Source: an uncultured Chlorobiales bacterium
Lineage (GTDB): Bacteria > Bacteroidota > Chlorobiia > Chlorobiales > Chlorobiaceae
Reading direction: 5' to 3'
Length of the DNA: 64,000 nucleotides
Assembly (NCBI GenBank): GCA_903929135.1
Contig: CAIYTH010000057.1
Coordinates: forward strand, 1 to 64,000
The notes beneath the pieces were generated by a model, which was given only the letters and a program-made list of their open reading frames with translations, searched no databases and had not been told where the DNA came from. Position numbers and translations under genes: made by a program. Positions 33,291 through 44,092 of this stretch are shown piece by piece (position 1 is the first letter of the stretch; every line of letters begins with the position of its first letter).

Positions 33291-34346
33291 TCAGAGCAGC
33301 AGATTGAAAAGGTACCCCACGATCATGATGCCTGTGGCCACAACGCCGGCAAATACGGCGATCAGGCGGGGTTTGAGCACCTTTCTGAGGATGATCATTT
33401 CCGGGGCGGAGAGCGCGATGACGCTCATCATGAAGGCCATTGTCGTACCCAGAGCGGCGCCCTTGCCGAGAAGAGCCTCGACCACCGGCAGGATGCCTGC
33501 GGCGTTCGAGTACATCGGCACACCTATAAGTACGGCGACCGGCACGGCCCACCACTCGTCCCGCCCCATGAGCGAAGCCATGAAGTTCTGGGGGACATAG
33601 CCGTGGATGCCTGCACCCAATCCGACGCCGATGACGATGTAGAGCCATACACGACCGACGATCTCCCGCACATGCCTGGCTCCCCCGCTGAAACGTCGCG
33701 GCCAGGAGAGGGATTCAGCTTCGTAATCATCGACAGACGCGCTGTTCTGGATTTGCTGCACCCACTCCTCGAGATACCTCTCCATCTTCAGCTTTCCGAT
33801 CGCGACTCCTGAGACGACAGCGACCATGAGCCCCATCGCCATGTAGAGCAATGCCACCCGCCAGCCGAACATGCCGAAAAGCAGCGCAAGGGCAACCTCG
33901 TTGACCATCGGCGCCGACACGAGGAACGAAAAGGTGACGCCCAGGGGTACGCCGGCCTGCAGGAAACCGATGAACAGGGGCACGGCCGAGCAGGAGCAGA
34001 ACGGCGTCACGACGCCGAGCGCCGCAGCCATCAGGTTGCCGACCCCCTCCCTCCTTCCGGAAAGCAGTGCCCTGGTGCGTTCGGCTGAGATAAAGGTATG
34101 GACCACCCCCATCAGGAATACGACGGCGACCAGCAGCAGCAGCACCTTCGGCGCTTCGTACAGGAAAAAACGGAGTGCCTCGCCGAAAGAGGTTGCCCTG
34201 CTCAAACCGAACAGGCCGACAAGAAAATCGGCAGCCTCTTCCAGGTGCAGATAGGTATACGCCCAGAGCGCAGCGGAGACGACAAGCCCCGCCGCCCATC
34301 CTGCGGCTGGCGACTTCAGGCCGCCATCTGCCCGGACCTCCCCCAT
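33291..34346 (-). CDS. UPF0718 (DUF318/ArsP-like) permease
   Basis: The membrane protein of about 351 residues has roughly eight hydrophobic helices and the conserved Cys motif PFCSCSAVPLFIGFLQAGVPLG. It also has VSAPMVNEVALALLFGMFGW and a second half repeating the pattern (VPMYSNAAGILPVVEALLGKGAALGT). The family includes ArsP, which exports trivalent organoarsenicals. A polar cytoplasmic loop (EEWVQQIQNSASVDDYEAES) joins the halves. The operon with an ArsR regulator and a small thioredoxin supports a metalloid or thiol-reactive substrate. The start is uncertain: 34346 leaves a four-base gap to the upstream gene, while 34391 would overlap it by 41. Confidence 0.82.
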   Translation of the reverse strand: MGEVRADGGLKSPAAGWAAGLVVSAALWAYTYLHLEEAADFLVGLFGLSRATSFGEALRFFLYEAPKVLLLLVAVVFLMGVVHTFISAERTRALLSGRREGVGNLMAAALGVVTPFCSCSAVPLFIGFLQAGVPLGVTFSFLVSAPMVNEVALALLFGMFGWRVALLYMAMGLMVAVVSGVAIGKLKMERYLEEWVQQIQNSASVDDYEAESLSWPRRFSGGARHVREIVGRVWLYIVIGVGLGAGIHGYVPQNFMASLMGRDEWWAVPVAVLIGVPMYSNAAGILPVVEALLGKGAALGTTMAFMMSVIALSAPEMIILRKVLKPRLIAVFAGVVATGIMIVGYLFNLLL

Positions 34347-34350
34347 CAGC

Positions 34351-34653
34351 TCAGCAGCAGGTTCCGTTGTGCCGTCCGGTGCCATTCGCATGGTCGCCGC
34401 AACAGCAGGAGTGCGGTTTTGCCGTCAGCATCTCCCTGATTTCGTCGTTCGAAGGCACTCGCCCCGAACAGAGCACTTTACCGTCAACCACGAGAGCAGG
34501 TGTCGACAGCACGCCGTACGCGACGATCTGCTGGATATCCTCGACCTTTTCAAGAACCGCCTCAATGCCCTCCGCTTCGATGACTGACTTGACCGCATCC
34601 GCAAGCTGGTTGCACTTCGCACAGCCGCTTCCGAGAATTTTGACCGTTTTCAT
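34351..34653 (-). CDS. Small thioredoxin-like redox disulfide protein
   Basis: The 100-residue protein has a thioredoxin fold with the active site GSGCAKCNQLADAV, a cis-Pro region (GVLSTPALVVDGKV) and the ending PSNDEIREML. It is of the 'redox-active disulfide protein 2' group that accompanies UPF0718 permeases. Unusually, the C-terminus is rich in Cys and His (SCCCGDHANGTGRHNGTCC), which could bind a soft metal ion; that is inference. It lies between the ArsR regulator and the permease. Confidence 0.85.
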   Translation of the reverse strand: MKTVKILGSGCAKCNQLADAVKSVIEAEGIEAVLEKVEDIQQIVAYGVLSTPALVVDGKVLCSGRVPSNDEIREMLTAKPHSCCCGDHANGTGRHNGTCC

Positions 34654-34679
34654 CTGGTGTTACCCCTTGTTTTTTGTTT

Positions 34680-34695
34680 ATCGCAAATGAACGAT
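34680..34695. promoter_or_regulatory. Candidate ArsR operator, site 2 (between arsR and thioredoxin gene)
   Basis: ATCG-CAAATGAA-CGAT is a 16-base palindrome whose outer four bases pair exactly. It has the same length and near-consensus (ATCGyAAATrwACGAT) as site 1 upstream of arsR. It lies 27 bases before the thioredoxin gene start, where an internal promoter could be controlled. Confidence 0.55.
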
Positions 34696-34716
34696 TTATC
34701 ATAAATAAAATGAAAA

Positions 34717-35049
34717 TCAGCAGCAGGATTTCCTGCATTGAGTCTCATCGAACAAGCTCCCGAAGAGTTCCTGTGCCATCCGCATCCGCTCCCTGTTGAT
34801 ACAGTAACGTACCTTCGGCGGATTGATCGCGCCCTGGATGAGGCCGGCTTCGAGCAGCGCCTTGAGATGCTGGGAAATGGTCGACTGCGCCATGGGAATG
34901 ACTCCGGTTAGCTCTCCGGTGAAGCAGCAGGACTCGCCGGCAAGCAGTTTCAGGATCTTGATCCTCACGGGATGGGAAAGCGCCTTCGCAACAAGGGCGA
35001 GTTCCTCCTCCTCCTTGCTGTATGGCACAGCTGCCATGGATCTCTTCAT
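34717..35049 (-). CDS. arsR: ArsR/SmtB-family transcriptional regulator
   Basis: The 110-residue winged-helix protein has ALSHPVRIKILKLLAGESCCFTGEL, the recognition helix MAQSTISQHLKALLEAGLI, and a wing. The adjacent Cys pair in GESCCF sits at the alpha3 position that binds As(III)/Sb(III) in ArsR (the ELCVC site), and the C-terminus has another Cys cluster (CRKSCC). This fits thiophilic metalloid sensing. It precedes the thioredoxin-permease genes and has a palindrome 18 bases upstream. Confidence 0.9.
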   Translation of the reverse strand: MKRSMAAVPYSKEEEELALVAKALSHPVRIKILKLLAGESCCFTGELTGVIPMAQSTISQHLKALLEAGLIQGAINPPKVRYCINRERMRMAQELFGSLFDETQCRKSCC

Positions 35050-35082: not shown

Positions 35083-35454
35083 AAGAAATCCAAACAAACT
35101 AAACCTTGCCGCCGGATGACCGGAAATGTCAAAGAGCATCATGAACGGAACGTTGATGGTTAATAAATAAAGTTTTCGTTATATTCAGATAAACATAACG
35201 CAACCAAAACAGGAACCGACTTTTTCGTAATAAAATTAATTTGGCTTTTCGGGATATAATTGATAATCTTAGGTGTTAAGATTATTTAACCTTATTTATT
35301 TAGGTTATTATTGAGAAATTGCCAAGGTTCCAAAATAAATCCCTTTCCCTCCATTGCAGGCGTCTTCCTTCAAAAAACCTGTAAATGACATGAAAGCATC
35401 GTCGACGCGATCGACGATATGGAGGATCCGACATAACGACTGCACTAGACTGAC
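35083..35454. other. AT-rich arsR-modD intergenic region with hairpins
   Basis: There is no convincing gene. After the ModE-type box (35177-35200) the leader to modD is about 255 bases long and holds two AT-rich palindromes: TAATCTTA-N5-TAAGATTA (35264-35284) and TAACCT-N9-AGGTTA (35287-35307). A 25-codon ORF starting near 35390 runs into modD out of frame and is probably not real. The long leader could carry post-transcriptional control. Confidence 0.45.
35177..35200. promoter_or_regulatory. ModE-type operator upstream of modDABC
   Basis: CGTTATAT-N8-ACATAACG matches the known ModE palindrome (CGTTATAT and ATATAACG halves) with an 8-base spacer. It lies about 255 bases upstream of modD and 128 bases upstream of divergent arsR. 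The downstream flank CAACCAAAAC resembles the flanks of the two boxes near 43.0 and 43.2 kb. Confidence 0.75.
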
Positions 35455-36312
35455 ATGCCCTATCTGATTCCTGACAACGATCTGGACCGCTTCATCGAAG
35501 AGGATATGCCCTATGGCGATCTGACGACGAGCCTGCTCGGTATCGGCGACGAGGAGGGAACCATCTCCTTCACATCGCGCGAAAAGACAGTCGCCTGCTG
35601 CACCGAAGAGGCTGGAAAAGTCCTCGGGAAGTGCGGTGCGAAGGTCTCCTTCGCATTGCCATCGGGAACTGCCGTCGGGGCCGGCACACTCCTCCTGCAG
35701 GCGGCAGGGTCGGCTGCCGCACTGCATGCGGGATGGAAGGTGGCGCTGAACCTCCTCGAGTACGCCTCAGGCATCGCGACAAGAACGGCTACGATCGTCG
35801 AAAAGGCCCGCGCCATGAATCCGGATATTGCCGTCGTAACCACGCGCAAATCATTTCCCGGTACCAGGAAAATCGCCATGAAGGCGATCATGGCCGGTGG
35901 CGCAATGCCGCATCGCCTCGGGCTCTCCGAATCGATTCTCGTCTTCAGACAGCACACCGTATTCCTGGGAGGGATCGAACCCTTTCTGGAAACCATATCC
36001 TCCCTGAAAAAGAGAGCGCCTGAACACAAGATCATCGTCGAAGCCGATACTTACGATGACGCGCTCCTGATCGCGAAGTCCGGGGTCGACGTCGTCCAGG
36101 TCGACAAGATGCCTGTTCCCGAACTTGCCGCGCTCGTCGCCGAAATCCGCCGGACATCTCCGGGAACCGCCATCTCGGCAGCAGGCGGCATCAACGTCGA
36201 CAACGCTGCCGCATACTCCTCGACGGGCATCGACATCATCGTGCTCTCCTCGGTCTATTTCGGCAAGCCTTCAGACATCTCAGCAGTCATCAACCACAAA
36301 CAAAAACCCTGA
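35455..36312 (+). CDS. modD: ModD, molybdenum-transport pyrophosphorylase-like protein
   Basis: The 285-residue protein resembles quinolinate phosphoribosyltransferase (NadC) but has the ModD hallmarks MPYGDLTTSLLGIG, TTRKSFPGTRKIAMKAIMAGGAMPHRLGLSESILVF and VDVVQVDKMP. ModD genes sit in molybdate transport operons, and their reaction is not established to my knowledge. It starts the modDABC operon; modA follows after five bases. Confidence 0.88.
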   Translation: MPYLIPDNDLDRFIEEDMPYGDLTTSLLGIGDEEGTISFTSREKTVACCTEEAGKVLGKCGAKVSFALPSGTAVGAGTLLLQAAGSAAALHAGWKVALNLLEYASGIATRTATIVEKARAMNPDIAVVTTRKSFPGTRKIAMKAIMAGGAMPHRLGLSESILVFRQHTVFLGGIEPFLETISSLKKRAPEHKIIVEADTYDDALLIAKSGVDVVQVDKMPVPELAALVAEIRRTSPGTAISAAGGINVDNAAAYSSTGIDIIVLSSVYFGKPSDISAVINHKQKP

Positions 36313-36317
36313 TCGCC

Positions 36318-37076
36318 ATGAAATCCGCTAAAAGCCTTTGTTCGCGCATAGTGCTCTCGCTCTTCGCCTTCTCGATTGCGGCGTTGCCTGCAAAGGCGGC
36401 CCAGATCAACCTCTCTGCCGCTGCGAGCCTCAAGGAGGCCATCAACGAAATGTCGGACAAGTACACGGCGACGCATGGCGGCACCACGTTCGTGAAGAAC
36501 TACGGAGCCTCGGGCGCCATCGCCGGGCAGATCGAGAACGGCGCACCGGCCGACATCTTCATTTCGGCGAGCACCGAGTGGATGGATTACCTGAAGAACA
36601 AAAACCTGATCGACCCTGCAAGCCGGACGGACTTCGCCTACAACGTGCTCGTCTTTGCCGGCACGACCACGAAAAAGGTCAGCGGCATGAAGGAGCTTGC
36701 AGGGCTCGACAAGATCGCCATCGGCAGCCCGAAGAGCGTGCCTGCCGGCGAATACGCCACTGAGGCCATGAAGAAGTCTGGAGTCGACCAGAAGCTTGCC
36801 TCGAAACTGGTCATGGCCAAGGACGTCAGGGAGTGCCTCACCTATGCCGAGATGGGAGAGGTCGACGGCGCCTTCGTCTACCGCACGGACGCCCTGCAGG
36901 CGAAAAAGGCCAGAATCCTCTTCGTCGTGCCGGCAAACCTCTATTCGAGGGTGGTCTACCCGATGGCGCTCACCGTGAGCGGAACGAAAAACGCCGATGC
37001 GAAGTCGTTCATATCATGGCTGAAAGAGAGCGAAGCAAAATCCATTCTCAAGAAATACGGCTTCGAGCTGAAGTAA
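36318..37076 (+). CDS. modA: Molybdate ABC transporter substrate-binding protein
   Basis: The 252-residue protein has a cleaved signal peptide (LFAFSIAALPAKAA) and then the ModA pattern INLSAAASLKEAINEM, YGASGAIAGQIENGAPADIFISAS, IAIGSPKSVPAGEYATEAM and GEVDGAFVYRTDAL. These include the Ser, Tyr and backbone contacts for the tetrahedral oxyanion. It captures molybdate or tungstate in the periplasm for ModBC. Confidence 0.95.
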   Translation: MKSAKSLCSRIVLSLFAFSIAALPAKAAQINLSAAASLKEAINEMSDKYTATHGGTTFVKNYGASGAIAGQIENGAPADIFISASTEWMDYLKNKNLIDPASRTDFAYNVLVFAGTTTKKVSGMKELAGLDKIAIGSPKSVPAGEYATEAMKKSGVDQKLASKLVMAKDVRECLTYAEMGEVDGAFVYRTDALQAKKARILFVVPANLYSRVVYPMALTVSGTKNADAKSFISWLKESEAKSILKKYGFELK

Positions 37077-37092
37077 CCTGACCGGGAACACC

Positions 37093-37779
37093 ATGAGTCT
37101 TTCACCACAGGACCTTACGGCCATAGGCCTTTCGATGAAGATCGCTGTCTGTGCGACCGCGCTCTCCCTCCCGTTCGGCTTTGCGACGGCATGGTTCATG
37201 GTGTTCAGGAACTTCCGAGGCAAGGTGCTGCTCGAAGTGCTGGTGAACCTTCCGCTCACCCTACCCCCGGTGGTCATCGGCTATTTCCTGCTGCTTCTCT
37301 TCGGGCGGCACGGCTGGGCCGGCGCCGCACTGAGGTCGGCAGGAATCGAATTCATCTTCACCTGGAAGGCGGCCGTGGTCGCATCGGCGACCGTCGGATT
37401 TCCCCTGCTGGTACGCTCGATCCGGCTCGGCATGGAGTCGATCGACCGCCAGCTCATTCAGGCATCACGGAGCCTCGGCGCCGCCTGGTACGACACGCTC
37501 GCCACCATCGTCCTGCCGCTCTCCTTCAGGGGCATGGTCGCCGGATCGTCGCTCATGTTCGCCAGGAGCCTCGGGGAGTTCGGAGCGACGATCATCGTGG
37601 CAGGCAACATTCCCGGCCTTACCCAGACCATACCGCTGGCCATCTACGACTACGCCAGTTCCCCAACCGGCACCTCGATGGCCCTCTCGCTCTGCGCGGT
37701 TTCGGTCACCCTGTCGGTCGCGATCCTTCTGCTGCACGAGGTGATCGGCAAAAAGCTCGAGAACGGGAGGAGCGCATGA
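37093..37779 (+). CDS. modB: Molybdate ABC transporter permease
   Basis: The 228-residue membrane protein has about five or six helices, the motif NLPLTLPPVVIGYFLL typical of ModB, and the EAA loop (IDRQLIQASRSLGAAWYDTLATIVLPLS) that docks to ModC. ARSLGEFGATIIVAGNIPG completes the family signature. Its stop overlaps the modC ATG by four bases. Confidence 0.96.
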   Translation: MSLSPQDLTAIGLSMKIAVCATALSLPFGFATAWFMVFRNFRGKVLLEVLVNLPLTLPPVVIGYFLLLLFGRHGWAGAALRSAGIEFIFTWKAAVVASATVGFPLLVRSIRLGMESIDRQLIQASRSLGAAWYDTLATIVLPLSFRGMVAGSSLMFARSLGEFGATIIVAGNIPGLTQTIPLAIYDYASSPTGTSMALSLCAVSVTLSVAILLLHEVIGKKLENGRSA

Positions 37780-38831
37780 GGCTGGACATCGATGTTGAAA
37801 AGCGACTCGGCAGCTTCTCGCTCCGGATGGAAACCAGCCTCACTGGAGACCGGATCGGCATTTTCGGCGATTCGGGAAGCGGCAAATCTACCCTCGTCCA
37901 CCTGATCGCCGGCCTCCTGGCACCTGATCGGGGCGAACTCCGCATCGACGGCACGACGCTCTTCAGCAGCCGTGACCGGATCAACCTCACACCGGAACAG
38001 CGCCGTATCGCCATCGTCTTCCAGCAGGCGATGCTCTTCCCGCATCTCGGGGTAAAGGCGAACCTGCTCTACGGATACCGGAGATGCCGACCGGAACACC
38101 GCAAGATCCGGCCGGAAGCGATCATCGAGGTGCTGAACCTGCAGAACCTCCTCCAGCGCGGCGTCAACAACCTCTCGGGCGGTGAAAAGCAGCGCGTGGC
38201 CCTCGGCAGGGCCGTGCTGGCCAACCCGCGCCTGCTCGTGATGGACGAGCCGCTCTCGGCACTCGACGATTCGCTCCGCTACCAGATCATCCCCTATCTG
38301 AAAAGCGTCAGCGAAGAGTTCCGGATCCCGTACCTCTTCATTTCGCATTCGATCACCGAAATGCAGCTGATGGCCGACGATGTCCTGGTGGTTGCGAAAG
38401 GTGAGTTGGCCGGAGTCTCGACGCCGGATCAGATAGCCCGTACGAACATGGTCGGAAGCCCCAGGGGCTATCTCAACCTGCTGCGCCTGGGCGATCCCCT
38501 CCTGCGGGATGGCCTTTACCACTACCCGTGGGGACAGGGCCACCTGATCGTTTCAGACGGAAACGATCACGGCGAGTCGCTGTTCGAACTCTCTTCGCGG
38601 GATATCATCCTGTTCAAGAACCACCCGGAGGCGATCAGCGCCCGTAACCTGCTCGAGTGCAGGGTCGCAGAACTGTTCGAATCAGATGGACGGAACGGCG
38701 TGGTGCTTGAATCAGGCGGCAAACGGCTCGTCGCCGAGATCGTCCGTACGGCAGCCGAAGAGCTCGGGATAGCCCCGGGTGTCATCATCTTCGCCGCCAT
38801 CAAGGCTTCGGCGTTCAGAAGGCTAGGCTAA
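37776..38831 (+). CDS. modC: Molybdate ABC transporter ATPase with C-terminal Mop domain
   Basis: The 351-residue protein has Walker A GDSGSGKST, Q-loop VFQQAMLFPHL, signature NLSGGEKQRVALGRAVL, Walker B LLVMDEPLSALD and switch His FISHSITEM. The last 70 residues form a Mop/TOBE regulatory domain (ISARNLLECRVAELF ... IAPGVIIFAAIKASAF) that can bind molybdate and shut down import. It is the last gene of modDABC; AT-rich DNA follows. Confidence 0.95.
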   Translation: MRLDIDVEKRLGSFSLRMETSLTGDRIGIFGDSGSGKSTLVHLIAGLLAPDRGELRIDGTTLFSSRDRINLTPEQRRIAIVFQQAMLFPHLGVKANLLYGYRRCRPEHRKIRPEAIIEVLNLQNLLQRGVNNLSGGEKQRVALGRAVLANPRLLVMDEPLSALDDSLRYQIIPYLKSVSEEFRIPYLFISHSITEMQLMADDVLVVAKGELAGVSTPDQIARTNMVGSPRGYLNLLRLGDPLLRDGLYHYPWGQGHLIVSDGNDHGESLFELSSRDIILFKNHPEAISARNLLECRVAELFESDGRNGVVLESGGKRLVAEIVRTAAEELGIAPGVIIFAAIKASAFRRLG

Positions 38832-38897
38832 AGGCAGAAAAAGACTGATACCGCGATTATCTGGTAGATAAGTATTGAATTTTGAAATGAGTTTTTA

Positions 38898-39180
38898 TGG
38901 ATACGGAACAACGTCACGGAGGGTAACCTCGCATCCCAGAGGAACCTTGTACCGACTATGTTAGCCCATTTCCAAAAATGCAGAATCCACCATTTCTTCA
39001 AGCTGCTGCCAGTCTTTTGGTTAGCAATCAAAAATCATATTAGACATATTAGACATCAAGGCTCCTCGAAAAACTCTGTTCTGAAATGCTTCCCGGCTTG
39101 ACTCAGAAACGTCACTTAATAAGTTTAGAAGCATCAGGTTCACTGTACACAAAGCCGAGGTACAGATTCTGATCGATCCT
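38898..39180 (-). pseudogene. Possible decayed gene, nuclease-like fragment
   Basis: One minus-strand frame reads as protein-like sequence interrupted by two TAA codons: NLLSDVSESSREAFQNRVF, then PKDWQQLEEMVDSAFLEMG, a stop, and SRYKVPLGCEVTLRDVV. The middle resembles the N-terminus of Mrr-type restriction endonucleases (W..LE..V...F.EMG), but the match is weak and by eye only. No intact ORF spans it. It sits in the AT-rich segment with a different composition from both sides. Confidence 0.3.
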
Positions 39181-39428
39181 CATCATCCTGAAATATCGAG
39201 CCTCGTCAAGCAAAATAAAATCATATGACACAAAGTTCCTTGAGCATCATACCGTAATCCTCACGGCATAACATCTCCCTTGACTCGTTCTCATTCCTCA
39301 ATATTCATTTTCATTTTATCATAATAATCAATCTCGGCCTATTAAATAATACCAAATATTCTCAGAGAAGATGAAACGGCTATCTATAGCTTTTTGCTTT
39401 TGGATATATCACTTGGTGAAGCAACTGA

Positions 39429-39890
39429 TTATAGCCTAACTGACCCTCCCCAAAGCTGTTCATTCCCCGCAAAATAATTATCCACATAGTTCTTAACCTT
39501 TTCCAGGGGTTCCTTTCTACTCGCCCTTACCGATATACAGGACTCCATCCCAATATCTGTTTTTAGCGTGATACCCTCCTTTAATTTTATCGTCATACAC
39601 CAGTCGTGCAACTTGATAAAAAGTGTATCTGAATACCCCAAAATGTCAAAAATCCAAAAACCAAACACTTTCCAAATAATAGAAAATATGGCAAGCCCAG
39701 ACAGTTTATTTATTATTCGTATGAGTTGAAAAAATATATTTCCATAAACTTCTTTTGTTTTTCGCCTTATAGGATAAATGGATATGCTTTCAATATGATT
39801 TAACTCACAATGCCAAAATCCATAAGAAATACCATCCTCATCAAAATTCAGGTAACCGTAATTATTTTCGTCGAGCATAATTCCGATCAA
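39429..39890 (-). CDS. Hypothetical protein, AT-rich gene, 153 aa
   Basis: I do not recognise this protein. It has an N-terminal soluble part (NYGYLNFDEDGISYGFWHCELNHIESISIYPIRRKTKE), one or two hydrophobic stretches (LSGLAIFSIIWKVFGFWIF), and a beta-rich end with MTIKLKEGITLKTDIG and EPLEKVKNYVDNYFAG. The layout resembles small PH-like proteins with an embedded membrane hairpin. Codon use is AT-rich and unlike the neighbours, pointing to horizontal origin. Confidence 0.55.
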   Translation of the reverse strand: MIGIMLDENNYGYLNFDEDGISYGFWHCELNHIESISIYPIRRKTKEVYGNIFFQLIRIINKLSGLAIFSIIWKVFGFWIFDILGYSDTLFIKLHDWCMTIKLKEGITLKTDIGMESCISVRASRKEPLEKVKNYVDNYFAGNEQLWGGSVRL

Positions 39891-40230
39891 TAAAGTTAAC
39901 AGGAGGCAGGCTCAGAGGAAAGCTTCGAAAAACCGTATAAGAAATATGCAAAGCGAGTTTAACTGGCAAAGCTAGACTCAGAGCACCCATTTTCACTCCG
40001 CCAGAACGGGCTGTTTAAGCCTAATTAATCCATAGTTTTGTTACCAGCTGTTTCACCTACGATTCAGTGAAAAGGTAACTTGCTGTTGGAAATTTACAGC
40101 TTTTCCGATAACAGAACCCAATTCAACTTTCTGAAATTATTCCCGGAAATTCCGCATCAATGCCGCCTGCATCTTACAAGAACGGCGCTCTAATTCCAAT
40201 CACAACCACGGGAAATCCCTGTTAAATAAT

Positions 40231-40327
40231 CGGATGCCCCCGCCCGGATGTCCTTGCCGCCGTGAACATGCGAAAAAACACGAGTATGGCCTGCAATTGC
40301 ACAGGAGACGGGCAGGCGGGGCATCCG
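40231..40327. repeat. Long-loop inverted repeat downstream of the molybdopterin-fold gene
   Basis: CGGATGCCCCCGCC (40231-40244) pairs with GGCGGGGCATCCG (40315-40327), leaving one bulged base and a 70-base loop. It begins four bases beyond the stop of the minus-strand gene. It may be a structured 3' UTR, a terminator variant without a T-tract, or the edge of the AT-rich insertion. Confidence 0.5.
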
Positions 40328-40331
40328 AAAG

Positions 40332-40877
40332 TCATCTGTCTGCAGGCCCCACCTTTCCAACCTCGATGCTCTTTACCAGTTTGACATGCCGGGGGCCGTT
40401 CGATCGGTCGTTGTCGCAGAAAACCACGAACGGTCCATCCTCGCCTATCTGGCGTCCGTTCTCCTCGAACACCAGCCAGGTCTCCTCGCCTGCTACTCCA
40501 TAGCAGAGCTCGTTCCAGGTGTAGAGCACGTTGTAGTCGTCCGAAGCGCGCACGAGCACATAGTACTCGCCCCTCCGCCTCGGGTTCGGGACGGAGACCT
40601 TCGCCGAATCGAGAACGTCACGAAGCAGCACCCCTTTGAAGCTTTTCAGGGCATGCTTCGTTTCGCCTGAATCACAGACGATGTTTGTCTTTCCCTTTTC
40701 AACGACTCGCATCTTCCTGAGGGAGTCCACGGTCAGTGTCAGCGGATGCTCTACGAGCCCGGATACCGTCACCGTTCCACTCGGAGATGCAGGCGCGGCA
40801 TTGGAGGCTAACGGCGCTCCGACCATGGTAAGGGCGCAGAAAAGTGCACCGTAAACTCTTTTTTTCATTCTTCTCAT
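40332..40877 (-). CDS. Secreted molybdopterin-binding-fold protein
   Basis: The 181-residue protein has a Sec-type signal peptide ([19 protein letters not shown]) and a single sulfite-oxidase-like molybdopterin domain: [65 protein letters not shown], and [26 protein letters not shown] Cys sits where the Mo-ligand Cys is expected (IVCDSG), but the usual catalytic surroundings are reduced. No twin-Arg motif is visible, which is odd if it carries a prefolded cofactor. It lies 122 bases downstream of the TonB-dependent receptor on the same strand. GGAGG precedes the ATG. Confidence 0.78.
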
Positions 40878-40999
40878 TGCTCCTCCTTGTACGTTGATTT
40901 GATACTTCCATCAGTCAGATAAATCCTTGTCGACGATCGGCCCGGCCTCTTGTCGAGGGACGATATGAGGCCGGACCGACGAAGACAGTTGCCCCATGG

Positions 41000-43003
41000 T
41001 TAAAAATCGTAACCCATCGAAACCACGTAGGTCCTTCCGGGTTCAGGATATCCTTCCGCAACCTGGTAGTTCCGGTCGAAAAGATTCTCGACCGACGCCT
41101 TCACCGACAGCGAATGGCCAAGGCCGACGCTCCCTCGCAGGTTGATCAGGCCATATCCGCCTGCCGTGTAAAGCCCGTCGCTCGTGCTGTAGCGCTTCGA
41201 GTTGTACTCGGCCTCGACCAGGCCCCAGGTCTTGCGGCTGTGCAGAAACTGCAGCGATCCGTTGAGCTTGTGCTTCGGCACGTCGGTGAACAGAATCCCT
41301 TGGTTGCTGTCGTTTTTCCGGTCAATAAAGCTGTAGCCTCCGGTTGCCTTCAGCCAGCTTTCCGGTGTCCATTCGGCAGAGCTTTCGAAGCCTTTGTAGG
41401 TCGCTTTCCCGGTGTTCTGGAACTGGTAGACCCAGATACTGTTGACGTACGCGACGTTATTGACCTGCTGGATGACGTCGGTCAGCTTGTCCAGGTAGAC
41501 CGAGGTCATGATTTTCAGCTTGTCGGCCGGCCTGAAGGAGTAATCGATACCGAAGTTCCAGCTTTTCTCAGGAGCAAGCTGCGCATTGGGAAGGGCGCTT
41601 CCGAAACGGTAGGAGTAACGGTCTTTCAGGGTGGGGAACCTGGTCGTCCTCGCCACGTATCCTGTCAGCTCCTGATTTTCTCCCGGATGCCCGACAACGG
41701 CAAGCTGGTAATTGGCGGCTGAATTGTTGTCAAGTGGGAACGAGGAGATCGCATTCGTGGTGGAGTTCAGGTCCTGTGCCCTGATGGTGCTGCGGAAATC
41801 CTGCCTGACCCCGAGAATGACGTTGACCTCCCCCGTCGCCGCAAGGGTATTTTCGGCTGCGATCGAGAAGGTATTGTCCTCGAAGTTCTGCGGCGTCTGT
41901 CCGACGTTGTACTGCCGGTGCATGTCATGCTTTTCGTGAAGTGCAAACTTGAGGGTATCGTGCTGCGCGATCTCGGAACCCAGTTCGACCGACGCCCCGA
42001 AGGTCTTGTCGTCATAGACGCTGGTGAACGATGATTTTTTCTTCTGCGTCGTGTAGGTGGCATCGTCGTAGCTGTCCAGGACGTTGTAGTAACCGTCGTA
42101 ATAGGCCTTCGTTTTCAACCAGCTCCTGCTTCCCATGGCCGTCTTGCCGATGTAGTAGATGCTCGATTTGTCCCAATCTGCGTATTTCCAGAACCTGGCC
42201 GTATTCGACGGGTTCGTGCCGGTATAGACGGGAACGCCCTTCGCGGCGCTGATACCGTTGAAGGCGATGGTGTATTCGTCCGTACCGTTCGGCGTGTAGC
42301 CGATCTTCAATCCGCCATTCAGGTCCCTGGACTTTGAATTGTCACGCTTTCCTCCGTTCTCGTACGTCGTCGGCCTGAACTGTCCGGACATCTGCGAAAA
42401 GTCCCGATCGAGATGGGAAAGGCTTCCCTGCACATACCAGGTCCCCTGATTGGAACCGAAATTCAGTGTCTCGAAACTGGACCCGACACCGTTGCTGCCG
42501 TCGCTGAAACCGGCGCCCAGTGAGCCCTCGAAAACTCTTCCAGGTTTCCGAGTTACCAGGTTGATCGCGCCGCCGAGAGTGTTCGGCCCGAACAGCACCG
42601 ACGAGTATCCCTTTGAAACGGTGATCTCCGAAAGTCCGGCCGTCGAGAATCGGTTCGGATCGACATATCCGTCATACGGCACGTATTGAGGCACGCCGTC
42701 CAGGTAGAGCGGCACCTGCCTCATATCGAAACCCCTGACATAGATCATACCTTCGTTCCGTGCACCGACGTTGGCGAAATTCACTCCGGGAAGGAGATCC
42801 GCCGCCCTGGCGATGTCGGTTTTGCCGAGCGTCCCGATCTCTCTGGACGTCAGCGTATTGCCGACATCCGCTTTTTTGCCGACAACCGTTATCTCACCGG
42901 CAGTAAACACCCTGGCATCATTATCCTTGTCACCCTGGGCTTGAGCTGCCATTGCCGGCCTGACGGCGGCCAGCAGAAAAACCGTCAAAACTGCTTTTTT
43001 CAT
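41000..43003 (-). CDS. TonB-dependent outer-membrane receptor, candidate molybdate-related transporter
   Basis: The 667-residue protein has a signal peptide (AVLTVFLLAAVRPAMA), a likely TonB box (AGEITVVGKK), a plug domain (DIARAADLLPGVNFANVGAR, IYVRGFDMRQVPLYLDGVPQ, YSSVLFGPNTLGGAINLVTRKPG) and a 22-strand-type barrel that ends YVVSMGYDF with C-terminal Phe. It would move a scarce ligand across the outer membrane using TonB energy. Its promoter region has two ModE-type boxes, one 16 bases before the ATG, and its neighbours are molybdenum genes, so molybdate or a molybdate chelate is the inferred cargo. Siderophore receptors are the default alternative. Confidence 0.88.
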   Translation of the reverse strand: MKKAVLTVFLLAAVRPAMAAQAQGDKDNDARVFTAGEITVVGKKADVGNTLTSREIGTLGKTDIARAADLLPGVNFANVGARNEGMIYVRGFDMRQVPLYLDGVPQYVPYDGYVDPNRFSTAGLSEITVSKGYSSVLFGPNTLGGAINLVTRKPGRVFEGSLGAGFSDGSNGVGSSFETLNFGSNQGTWYVQGSLSHLDRDFSQMSGQFRPTTYENGGKRDNSKSRDLNGGLKIGYTPNGTDEYTIAFNGISAAKGVPVYTGTNPSNTARFWKYADWDKSSIYYIGKTAMGSRSWLKTKAYYDGYYNVLDSYDDATYTTQKKKSSFTSVYDDKTFGASVELGSEIAQHDTLKFALHEKHDMHRQYNVGQTPQNFEDNTFSIAAENTLAATGEVNVILGVRQDFRSTIRAQDLNSTTNAISSFPLDNNSAANYQLAVVGHPGENQELTGYVARTTRFPTLKDRYSYRFGSALPNAQLAPEKSWNFGIDYSFRPADKLKIMTSVYLDKLTDVIQQVNNVAYVNSIWVYQFQNTGKATYKGFESSAEWTPESWLKATGGYSFIDRKNDSNQGILFTDVPKHKLNGSLQFLHSRKTWGLVEAEYNSKRYSTSDGLYTAGGYGLINLRGSVGLGHSLSVKASVENLFDRNYQVAEGYPEPGRTYVVSMGYDF

Positions 43004-43018
43004 GGACGTATTTTGTTT

Positions 43019-43042
43019 CGTTATAACTTTAACTACATAACC
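43019..43042. promoter_or_regulatory. ModE-type operator proximal to the TonB receptor
   Basis: CGTTATAA-N8-ACATAACC, 16 bases upstream of the receptor ATG, has the same half-sites and spacer as the modD box, with one change in each half. Bound protein here would block transcription or translation initiation of the receptor gene. Confidence 0.65.
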
Positions 43043-43214
43043 ATTTCCAAAAAAAACCGAGTCTTTGAGAGCAGTTCACGATCTGTGCCGATCGCGACCT
43101 TTCCGGCACGGACGTCGTGCGCCCCCTCACGCATCGTAAGATGCCGCAGACGAACGGTTCCTTGAAATCGAGCGTGACGATATCCAGTTTTTGATTTGTC
43201 TTCGTTATATTCAT
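43032..43214 (-). CDS. Possible small ORF or gene remnant, 61 aa
   Basis: From an ATG inside the distal ModE-type box the minus strand encodes MNITKTNQKLDIVTLDFKEP and continues FVCGILRCVRGRTTSVPERS before ending inside the proximal box. The first 30 residues look protein-like, while the end, which runs through the operator, does not. It could be a real small gene, or the 5' end of a gene carried along with a duplicated operator. I do not recognise a family. Confidence 0.25.
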
Positions 43215-43226
43215 AATGATATAGCG
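43203..43226. promoter_or_regulatory. ModE-type operator distal to the TonB receptor
   Basis: CGTTATAT-N8-ATATAGCG is a third box with the ModE spacing. It lies 200 bases upstream of the receptor and 440 bases upstream of the molbindin gene. Its flank TTCCAAAAAAAAC repeats that of the proximal box, so the two segments are probably a duplication. Confidence 0.65.
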
Positions 43227-43666
43227 CATTCCAAAAAAAACGGGCATTTCCCGCTCACCATGAATTTCTCATCTAAAATCAAAAAAAACAAACCGATCCC
43301 ACATGGATGTATAAAAAAATGCACTCATGACGATCTTTTCCATTAATTCCGAAAGATTCCGCCGGGACTCCGTTGTGTTTGACGAAAAAAAGCGATTATT
43401 TCACTGAAATGAACTGTATAAAGCAAGGAACAACCCCGTCAGACCTTCTTCCCGATGTCTCTGCATCTCGAACTTCCCCCACCGGATCGGATGATGCCCG
43501 AGCTCCCCTCGGTACTTCGAAAACCATGCATCCCTTCCGATCGTCCAGCCCCTGCGGTCTCAACCAGAAACGGCAACCGGCTCTGCCTGCCGCTGCGGAA
43601 ATTCATGCAACGAGATTTTTTCCATGAACATCAACGAATACATCAACCTTTTTCAGGAGTAACTCC

Positions 43667-44092
43667 ATGAACATCAGCGCACGTAACATTTTCAAGGGCA
43701 CCGTCACTTCGATCGTCAAGGGCGCTGTCAACACCGAAGTCACCATTGCCCTCGGCGACGGGACCAGAATGGTTTCGATCATCACCGTCGGAGCCGCCGA
43801 ACGTCTCGGGCTGAAGGAAGGGGCAACCGCCAGCGCCATCGTCAAGGCCAGTTCGATCATCGTCGGAACCAACCTGCAGGGCGCTGAACTGAGCGCAAGG
43901 AACATCGTCAGAGGCAGGGTCAGCAAGGTCATAGAAGGACCGGTCAGCACCGAGGTCGACATCGAGATCGGCGGGGGCAACACCCTGTCGGCGGTGATCA
44001 CCCACGAAAGCTCGAAAAAGCTGGGTCTTGCTGCCGGCGCCGATGCCAGCGCCATCTTCAAGGCGTCAAGCGTGATCATCGGCGTCGAGTGA
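43667..44092 (+). CDS. mop: Molbindin with two Mop domains
   Basis: The 141-residue protein is a tandem of two Mop domains: NISARNIFKGTVTSIVKGAV ... SAIVKASSIIVG and LSARNIVRGRVSKVIEGPVS ... SAIFKASSVIIGVE. Such ModG/Mop proteins form oligomers that bind molybdate and are thought to buffer or store it in the cytoplasm. There is no DNA-binding domain, so it is not ModE itself. AGGAGTAACTCC precedes the ATG. A hairpin terminator follows 40 bases after the stop. Confidence 0.94.
   Translation: MNISARNIFKGTVTSIVKGAVNTEVTIALGDGTRMVSIITVGAAERLGLKEGATASAIVKASSIIVGTNLQGAELSARNIVRGRVSKVIEGPVSTEVDIEIGGGNTLSAVITHESSKKLGLAAGADASAIFKASSVIIGVE

Follow-up and report, generated by a model that had tools for sequence, protein, structure and literature searches.

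Background

Porins are generally regarded as the route of molybdate through the outer membrane, and receptors for molybdenum chelates have been proposed, to our knowledge without a gene family. Among the closest described systems, HI1470-HI1472 (MolABC of Haemophilus influenzae) appears in an excerpt of PMC3928620 as a secondary molybdate transporter of low affinity (~100 uM), with modA and modD alongside. Conservation of the ModE element in green sulphur bacteria is indicated by the title of Studholme & Pau 2003, as cited in an excerpt of PMC545781. Among the papers listed in our own literature search, none links ModE or molybdate to a TonB receptor; Studholme & Pau 2003 was outside its scope and may mention such a receptor, and the search was made before the E. 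coli operon described below surfaced and says nothing on that operon's publication. Here we analyse a window of 64,000 nt (positions 1-64,000, forward strand, of contig CAIYTH010000057.1, assembly GCA_903929135.1, an uncultured Chlorobiales bacterium), which carries the modDABC genes and a TonB-dependent receptor gene that we call TBDT1. Judged from sequence, TBDT1 very probably serves molybdenum acquisition under ModE control as its outer-membrane component, an estimate that covers the molybdenum role and not the ligand.

Results

The predicted membership of TBDT1 in the ModE regulon is strongly supported by boxes conserved in Chlorobia, by controls and by linkage to modE or modABC in other phyla. 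Boxes were scored over 18 positions as the match to CGTTATATT-N6-AATATAACG, and over a 14-position core as the match to CGNTATAT-N8-ATATANCG, the core that an excerpt of PMC545781 gives for the E. coli box; the thresholds (13/18, 11/14 and bit scores) were chosen after data inspection. A first-pass annotation of this DNA had placed ModE-type boxes before modD and the receptor, and these score 17/18 and 16/18. Two weaker proximal boxes, which it had not listed, can be added, and the modD and TBDT1 promoters each hold one distal and one proximal box (listed without strand):

35177..35200, ModE-type box, distal in the modD promoter, CGTTATATTCAGATAAACATAACG, 17/18, 254 bp upstream of the modD ATG
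35415..35438, weaker proximal ModE-like box, 12/18 and 11/14 in the core (joint third in the window), 16 bp before the modD ATG
43019..43042, proximal ModE-like box, 13/18, 15 bp upstream of the TBDT1 ATG
43203..43226, distal ModE box in the TBDT1-mop interval, CGTTATATTCATAATGATATAGCG, 16/18 and 14/14 in the core, 199 bp before the TBDT1 ATG

The boxes at modD and TBDT1 are far above chance. The top site in 40 shuffled windows reached only 14/18, compared with 17 and 16 for the boxes at 35177 and 43203, and the core scan of the 64 kb returned 43203, 35177, 43019 and 35415 as its top four sites. A looser pattern (CGNTATNT-N8-ANATANCG, with the backward pattern as control) was run over the whole draft assembly (2.14 Mb, 91.67% complete), where exactly three perfect sites were found, before modD, TBDT1 and modE. 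When up to two mismatches are allowed, the count is 36 sites against 21 for the backward control, and because of this the weak boxes mean little alone. A chance origin of the strong boxes is rejected on the shuffles, the genome-wide counts and the control receptors described below. The assembly encodes one ModE (a helix-turn-helix (HTH) and two TOBE domains), the sole match to the LysR-type HTH model, with its own box before modE; the gene adjoins nif genes, as judged by eye from the neighbour sequences.

TBDT1 was detected in 28 of 98 Chlorobia genomes. The match is full or near-full in 26, including a gene interrupted by an internal stop (G039) and another that a contig end truncates, and it is a fragment in two (G013, G016). 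Boxes were counted at 28 of the 30 loci, with L032 and L051 excluded (251 and 1 bases upstream), and the counted loci include both fragments, the internal-stop gene and two loci of G008. The conservation in other Chlorobi that the first-pass annotation had proposed as a check is indeed present: a box of at least 13/18 lies within 500 bp upstream of TBDT1 at all 28 loci (at least 14 at 18 of them), and at 26 of the 28 a box ends 13-19 bp ahead of the start codon. As a control, one of 20 unrelated TonB receptors had a box of 13/18 and none reached 14; for these the start codons were set by script, a receptor of a second type, TBDT2 (L186, 45% identity, 14/18 box), was uncounted, and a 100-base region of G089 was unused. 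A full-length ModE match is found in 25 of the 28 TBDT1 genomes. Strong matches to suoxL, the gene downstream of TBDT1 in the window, occur in 25 of the 98 genomes (E <1e-30), every one a TBDT1 genome, and weak ones (1e-3 to 4e-16) in four more, all without TBDT1.

Perfect boxes were surveyed in ten hand-picked TBDT1-bearing relatives, with targets assigned from position and neighbouring open reading frames (ORFs), partly by eye. The survey gave 22 perfect boxes against 2 backward-pattern sites, and all 22 precede modD, modA, a second modABC-like set, modE, mop/TBDT1, a TBDT2-type receptor, a large receptor-like ORF, sbp6 or a nif-region gene (the G005 box was assigned to modD by likeness to the G004 and G019 sites). 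In several genomes ModE-type boxes also lie immediately upstream of TBDT2, a receptor that is BtuB-like by score (copies at L051:7246-9312, L167:4660-6579, L169:6709-8625 and in L186). One large receptor-like ORF (L167:641-2881) has no Pfam match and is followed by an SBP_bac_11 gene, and another (L170:7016-9265) is preceded by a perfect box. The genome G013 retains the box together with fragmentary TBDT1 and suoxL, possibly a case of decay following sensor loss.

Gene identities in the window rest on Pfam and NCBIfam matches, which confirm what the first-pass annotation had read within 9 kb, namely modDABC, a molybdopterin-fold exported protein (of sulfite oxidase (SUOX) fold in our analysis), a TonB receptor and a two-domain molbindin:

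35455..36312, plus strand, modD, quinolinate phosphoribosyltransferase (QPRTase)-like ModD protein (TIGR01334, 258 bits, cut-off 178.85; PF01729/PF02749)
36318..37076, plus strand, modA, periplasmic molybdate-binding protein (PF13531, SBP_bac_11, 3.5e-57)
37093..37779, plus strand, modB, molybdate ABC permease (PF00528, BPD_transp_1, 2.2e-17)
37779..38831, plus strand, modC, molybdate ABC ATPase with a TOBE domain (PF00005, ABC_tran; PF03459, TOBE)
40332..40877, minus strand, suoxL, exported SUOX-fold protein of 181 aa, single domain, Cys68 kept by alignment (PF00174, 1e-8)
41000..43003, minus strand, TBDT1, TonB-dependent receptor of 667 aa (PF07715, Plug; PF00593, barrel)
43667..44092, plus strand, mop, two-TOBE molbindin of 141 aa (PF03459 in two stretches, 3e-34)

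TBDT1 and suoxL are in operon order on the minus strand, with suoxL downstream, and modDABC and mop are on the plus strand. ModA, ModB and a TOBE-bearing ModC in one operon make up a ModABC importer, while no Mol-type (FecCD) permease, ATPase or binding protein was found in the window; such genes lie on contig C40 of the same assembly. The gap between modC and suoxL (window 38832-40331) is AT-rich (GC 0.40 vs 0.586) and is only ~130 bp in the relative G007; it may be a trace of past rearrangement. An arsR-thioredoxin-arsP cluster (window 33291-35049) adjoins modD, and such a cluster adjoins TBDT1-suoxL in the G027 stretch and in Chlorobium ferrooxidans (L067, L085).

Outside the Chlorobia, homologues were sought with two conserved receptor motifs, a scan blind to boxes and neighbours, which gave 72 loci, 49 of them non-Chlorobia; by record title the homologues span at least five phyla. 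We counted 46 of these 49 and excluded L140 and L141 (little upstream DNA) and L143 (a short fragment, query residues 4-115). Neighbour genes were found by six-frame profile search within the fetched stretch, since longest-ORF gene calling failed in GC-rich loci. A box of at least 11/14 lies within 500 bp at 31 of the 46 loci, compared with 118 of 8282 background windows from the same loci (1.4%), and one of at least 12/14 at 29 of 46, compared with 57 of 8282. One of modE, modA, modB or modD is near the receptor at 26 of the 46 loci, a count without linkage control, and 36 of 46 have either a box or a mod gene.

Individual records add detail. The homologous operon in E. coli (L180:2353-8827; binding protein, FecCD permease, ATPase, methyltransferase, ModD and receptor) is annotated as iron transport and was matched in 2102 of 5426 genomes, with at least 80% of the operon in 2094 (39% of the complete genomes compared). 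The one copy examined has a perfect 14/14 box whose end lies 24 bp upstream of the first gene. A 60-bp query of the promoter matched 505 genomes at 95% or more, a number that for so short a query is a minimum. The E. coli permease has HI1471 as its best solved-structure match (1.6e-64, about 50-58 bits over the next). Of 26 family residues checked, 23 are conserved in the E. coli receptor and 25 in that of P. aeruginosa. In the P. aeruginosa record (L179:6899-9423) the TBDT1 homologue and a SUOX-fold gene adjoin moaA and narIJHG, and the receptor is preceded by a 12/14 box. Boxes in plasmid records score 13/14 (Methylorubrum) and 11/14 (Paracoccus), the Azospirillum record has a 12/14 box before the first of two genes preceding the receptor, and no box was found at the receptor in the Bartonella record.

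The window holds TBDT1-suoxL only, like several genomes of a second genus, while other relatives have a longer operon (TBDT1-fecC-fecE-methyltransferase-fecB-sbp6-GTPase-ATPase-TBDT2-suoxL), which in G007 lies between modC and mop. Chlorobaculum thiosulfatiphilum DSM 249 likewise carries the receptor together with importer genes (L084). Contig C40 carries a divergent copy of this long operon with a receptor C-terminus 61% identical; it comes from a draft assembly, in which same-cell origin is not demonstrable. Its permease again matches HI1471 best among solved structures (3.2e-68, about 50-58 bits over the next), and its binding protein matches 4pag best and HI1472/MolA third, at 2.1e-16. The C40 block (L051, 814-7188) encodes the FecCD importer, the methyltransferase, an SBP_bac_6 protein that shows no evident signal peptide, a GTPase resembling HypB and an ABC ATPase without a membrane partner of its own, and possibly serves intracellular molybdenum handling. 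In G086, a box precedes an SBP_bac_6 gene in the nif region (L168).

The AlphaFold2 model of TBDT1 (predicted local distance difference test, pLDDT, 90) has 22 barrel strands, counted from DSSP elements, plus the Plug. The motif GEITVVG at residues 36-42, largely kept in 24 Chlorobia sequences, resembles a TonB box and presumably is one. The nearest solved fold to the model is the copper receptor OprC, followed by BtuB and siderophore receptors, a match that does not by itself name the ligand of TBDT1. No NCBIfam name came over its cut-off (best 98 bits, against a lowest cut-off of 223.5 among the 17 models hit), and identification as BtuB or as a heme or siderophore receptor by curated model was rejected, with all cut-offs missed by far. 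The same distance from every model counts against reading TBDT1 as an iron, heme or cobalamin receptor whose place beside mod genes is incidental. The weak likeness to heme, siderophore and B12 models and the automatic annotation of the E. coli binding protein as an iron ABC transporter would speak for that reading; with boxes conserved in position and ModE linkage recurring across phyla, we regard it as very improbable.

The model of the SUOX-fold protein (pLDDT 78) has PruR (7kom) as its top Foldseek match, with SUOX-type enzymes ranked almost equally. Its single sequence found no relative among solved structures, and its profile found weak sulfite-oxidase matches only (best 1ogp, 1.3e-4). 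Within the 181 aa only PF00174 was matched, and the C-terminal dimerisation domain of sulfite-oxidase enzymes was not found. Cys68 is invariant in the 22-sequence alignment, and a cysteine at this position is the molybdenum ligand in SUOX enzymes. This cysteine is absent from the Xanthomonadales, Holophagaceae and Opitutus members, an absence that favours a binding role over catalysis. Downstream of the receptor, the gene directly follows in 12 of the 46 non-Chlorobi loci (seven Chromatiales or related purple bacteria, three Xanthomonadales and two Holophagaceae), and also in the Opitutus fragment L140 and the P. aeruginosa record. A pterin-type cargo, such as molybdopterin or a product of its breakdown, with this protein as its periplasmic holder, is conceivable: the nearest fold, PruR, is a periplasmic pterin-binding protein, the gene accompanies TBDT1 in Chlorobia, Gammaproteobacteria, Holophagaceae and Opitutus, and the members without the cysteine fit binding. 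Set against the near-equal rank of SUOX-type enzymes and a frequency of only 12 in 46, a pterin cargo seems improbable to us.

Discussion

Taken together, the receptor assigned by the first-pass annotation to a ModE molybdenum regulon very likely belongs there, in view of the conserved boxes, the controls and the linkage, while the choice that the annotation had offered among molybdate, thiomolybdate and a molybdate chelate is not settled by sequence. Several observations weigh against the regulon assignment or the molybdenum role. The best box within 500 bp is only 13/18 at 10 of the 28 Chlorobia loci, the level of one control receptor, and another scoring gives empirical p values of 0.011-0.065 for 11 Chlorobia loci and 0.27 for one with 251 bp upstream. 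A full-length ModE match is missing in G009 (88% complete), G058 (85%) and G013 (99%). Matches to ModE or molbindin, present in 82 of the 98 genomes compared with 28 for TBDT1, are so common that the co-occurrence of TBDT1 and ModE is weak evidence. Ten of the 46 non-Chlorobi loci have neither a box nor a mod gene, two of them (L091, L095) with Mol-type importer genes. By sequence, the receptor and binding proteins also resemble iron, heme and B12 proteins: the match of the E. coli binding protein to HI1472 is partial and second best (1.2e-7, with the iron protein 2etv at 6.4e-7), and like the C40 protein it matches 4pag best, a structure for which no ligand is stated.

By analogy with E. coli ModE, scarce molybdate would make ModE leave its boxes, and modDABC and TBDT1-suoxL would be transcribed. 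TBDT1-suoxL would form one ModE-regulon operon, the outer-membrane and periplasmic arm of molybdenum acquisition, in which TBDT1, energised by TonB, would take up a molybdenum species, with the SUOX-fold protein as its putative recipient or escort in the periplasm. ModABC or the Mol-type FecCD importer of C40, both present as genes, may then move the cargo inward, with Mop probably buffering the molybdate afterwards, and the methyltransferase and ModD possibly process the ligand.

As for the cargo, direct import of free molybdate or thiomolybdate, as OprC-like metal-ion receptors do with copper, would agree with the OprC-like fold and with short loci in which ModABC or ModA is the sole transporter part beside TBDT1. 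It would also agree with the search for a non-ribosomal peptide synthetase (NRPS) condensation domain, in which 11 of the 28 TBDT1 genomes gave a match and the other 17, our own included, gave none; a home-made NRPS chelator is therefore unlikely as the general ligand. For the organism studied here an NRPS-made chelator was rejected, as no condensation domain was found in its genome, in a search that covered NRPS only among chelator pathways. The partner in the long operons, on the other hand, is a FecCD-type importer, and such importers usually serve chelates and cofactors. Homologues with boxes or mod genes also occur in Pandoraea, Xanthomonadales, Verrucomicrobia, Azospirillum and E. coli, groups not known to be tied to sulfide, and because of these carriers the proposal of the first-pass annotation, that uptake answers the scarcity of molybdate in sulfide, where thiomolybdates form, does not hold as a general rationale. 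Free molybdate or thiomolybdate is rather unlikely as the cargo.

A ModE-controlled receptor could also serve another element when molybdenum is short, such as vanadium or iron for an alternative nitrogenase, or tungsten. Consistent with this, AnfG/VnfG lies about 4-30 kb from TBDT1 on the same contig in three genomes (G004, contig C10; G059, C31; G075, C1), and boxes also stand ahead of nif-region genes. However, just 6 of the 28 TBDT1 genomes carry AnfG/VnfG and it was not found in our own, so supplying an alternative nitrogenase with vanadium or iron is not the receptor's general purpose, and many non-Chlorobi loci pair TBDT1 with modA/modB. Overall we hold another element to be quite improbable, and tungsten stays a candidate cargo.

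The likeliest of the candidates, favoured tentatively, is a complex of molybdate with an organic ligand. The low affinity reported for MolA towards molybdate would be consistent with its true ligand being a complex. Possibly a widespread ModE-controlled import of an organic molybdenum complex or a pterin exists, made up of a TonB receptor family, a SUOX-fold carrier, a Mol-type ABC importer, and a methyltransferase and ModD that free the metal; we put this forward with reserve. With a receptor family recognised by its ModE boxes and mod neighbours, genes can be named and put to the test in culturable hosts, E. coli Nissle 1917 among them. It also suggests a place in molybdenum metabolism for an operon that carries iron-transport annotation in about 2100 E. 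coli genomes. Two orphan parts, ModD and the small SUOX-fold protein, would thereby be tied to one process.

Comparison with Known Systems

With the E. coli ModE regulon the locus shares the box, since ATCGNTATATA-N6-TATATANCGAT, as excerpts of PMC545781 and PMC2700814 describe the system, has the same palindrome core and spacing, and ModE there is likewise an HTH with two TOBE domains; it differs in that those excerpts list no TonB receptor among the ModE targets. Delivery of molybdate at the outer membrane has a parallel in P. aeruginosa, where an excerpt of PMC8602904 describes ModA secreted by the type VI secretion system and the outer-membrane IcmP. OprC has the closest fold to TBDT1 (TM-score about 0.77), but the two are only 17% identical and the cargo of OprC is copper, not molybdenum. 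PruR is, like the suoxL product, a small exported SUOX-fold protein, yet the identity is 18% and the window protein keeps Cys68. The MolABC system of H. influenzae is unlike the present one in that no outer-membrane receptor is named in the excerpt of PMC3928620, and in that the window has modABC with the mol-type genes on C40. It is like it in that the partner permeases of C40 and E. coli match HI1471 best, the C40 binding protein matches HI1472, and modD is present in both clusters.

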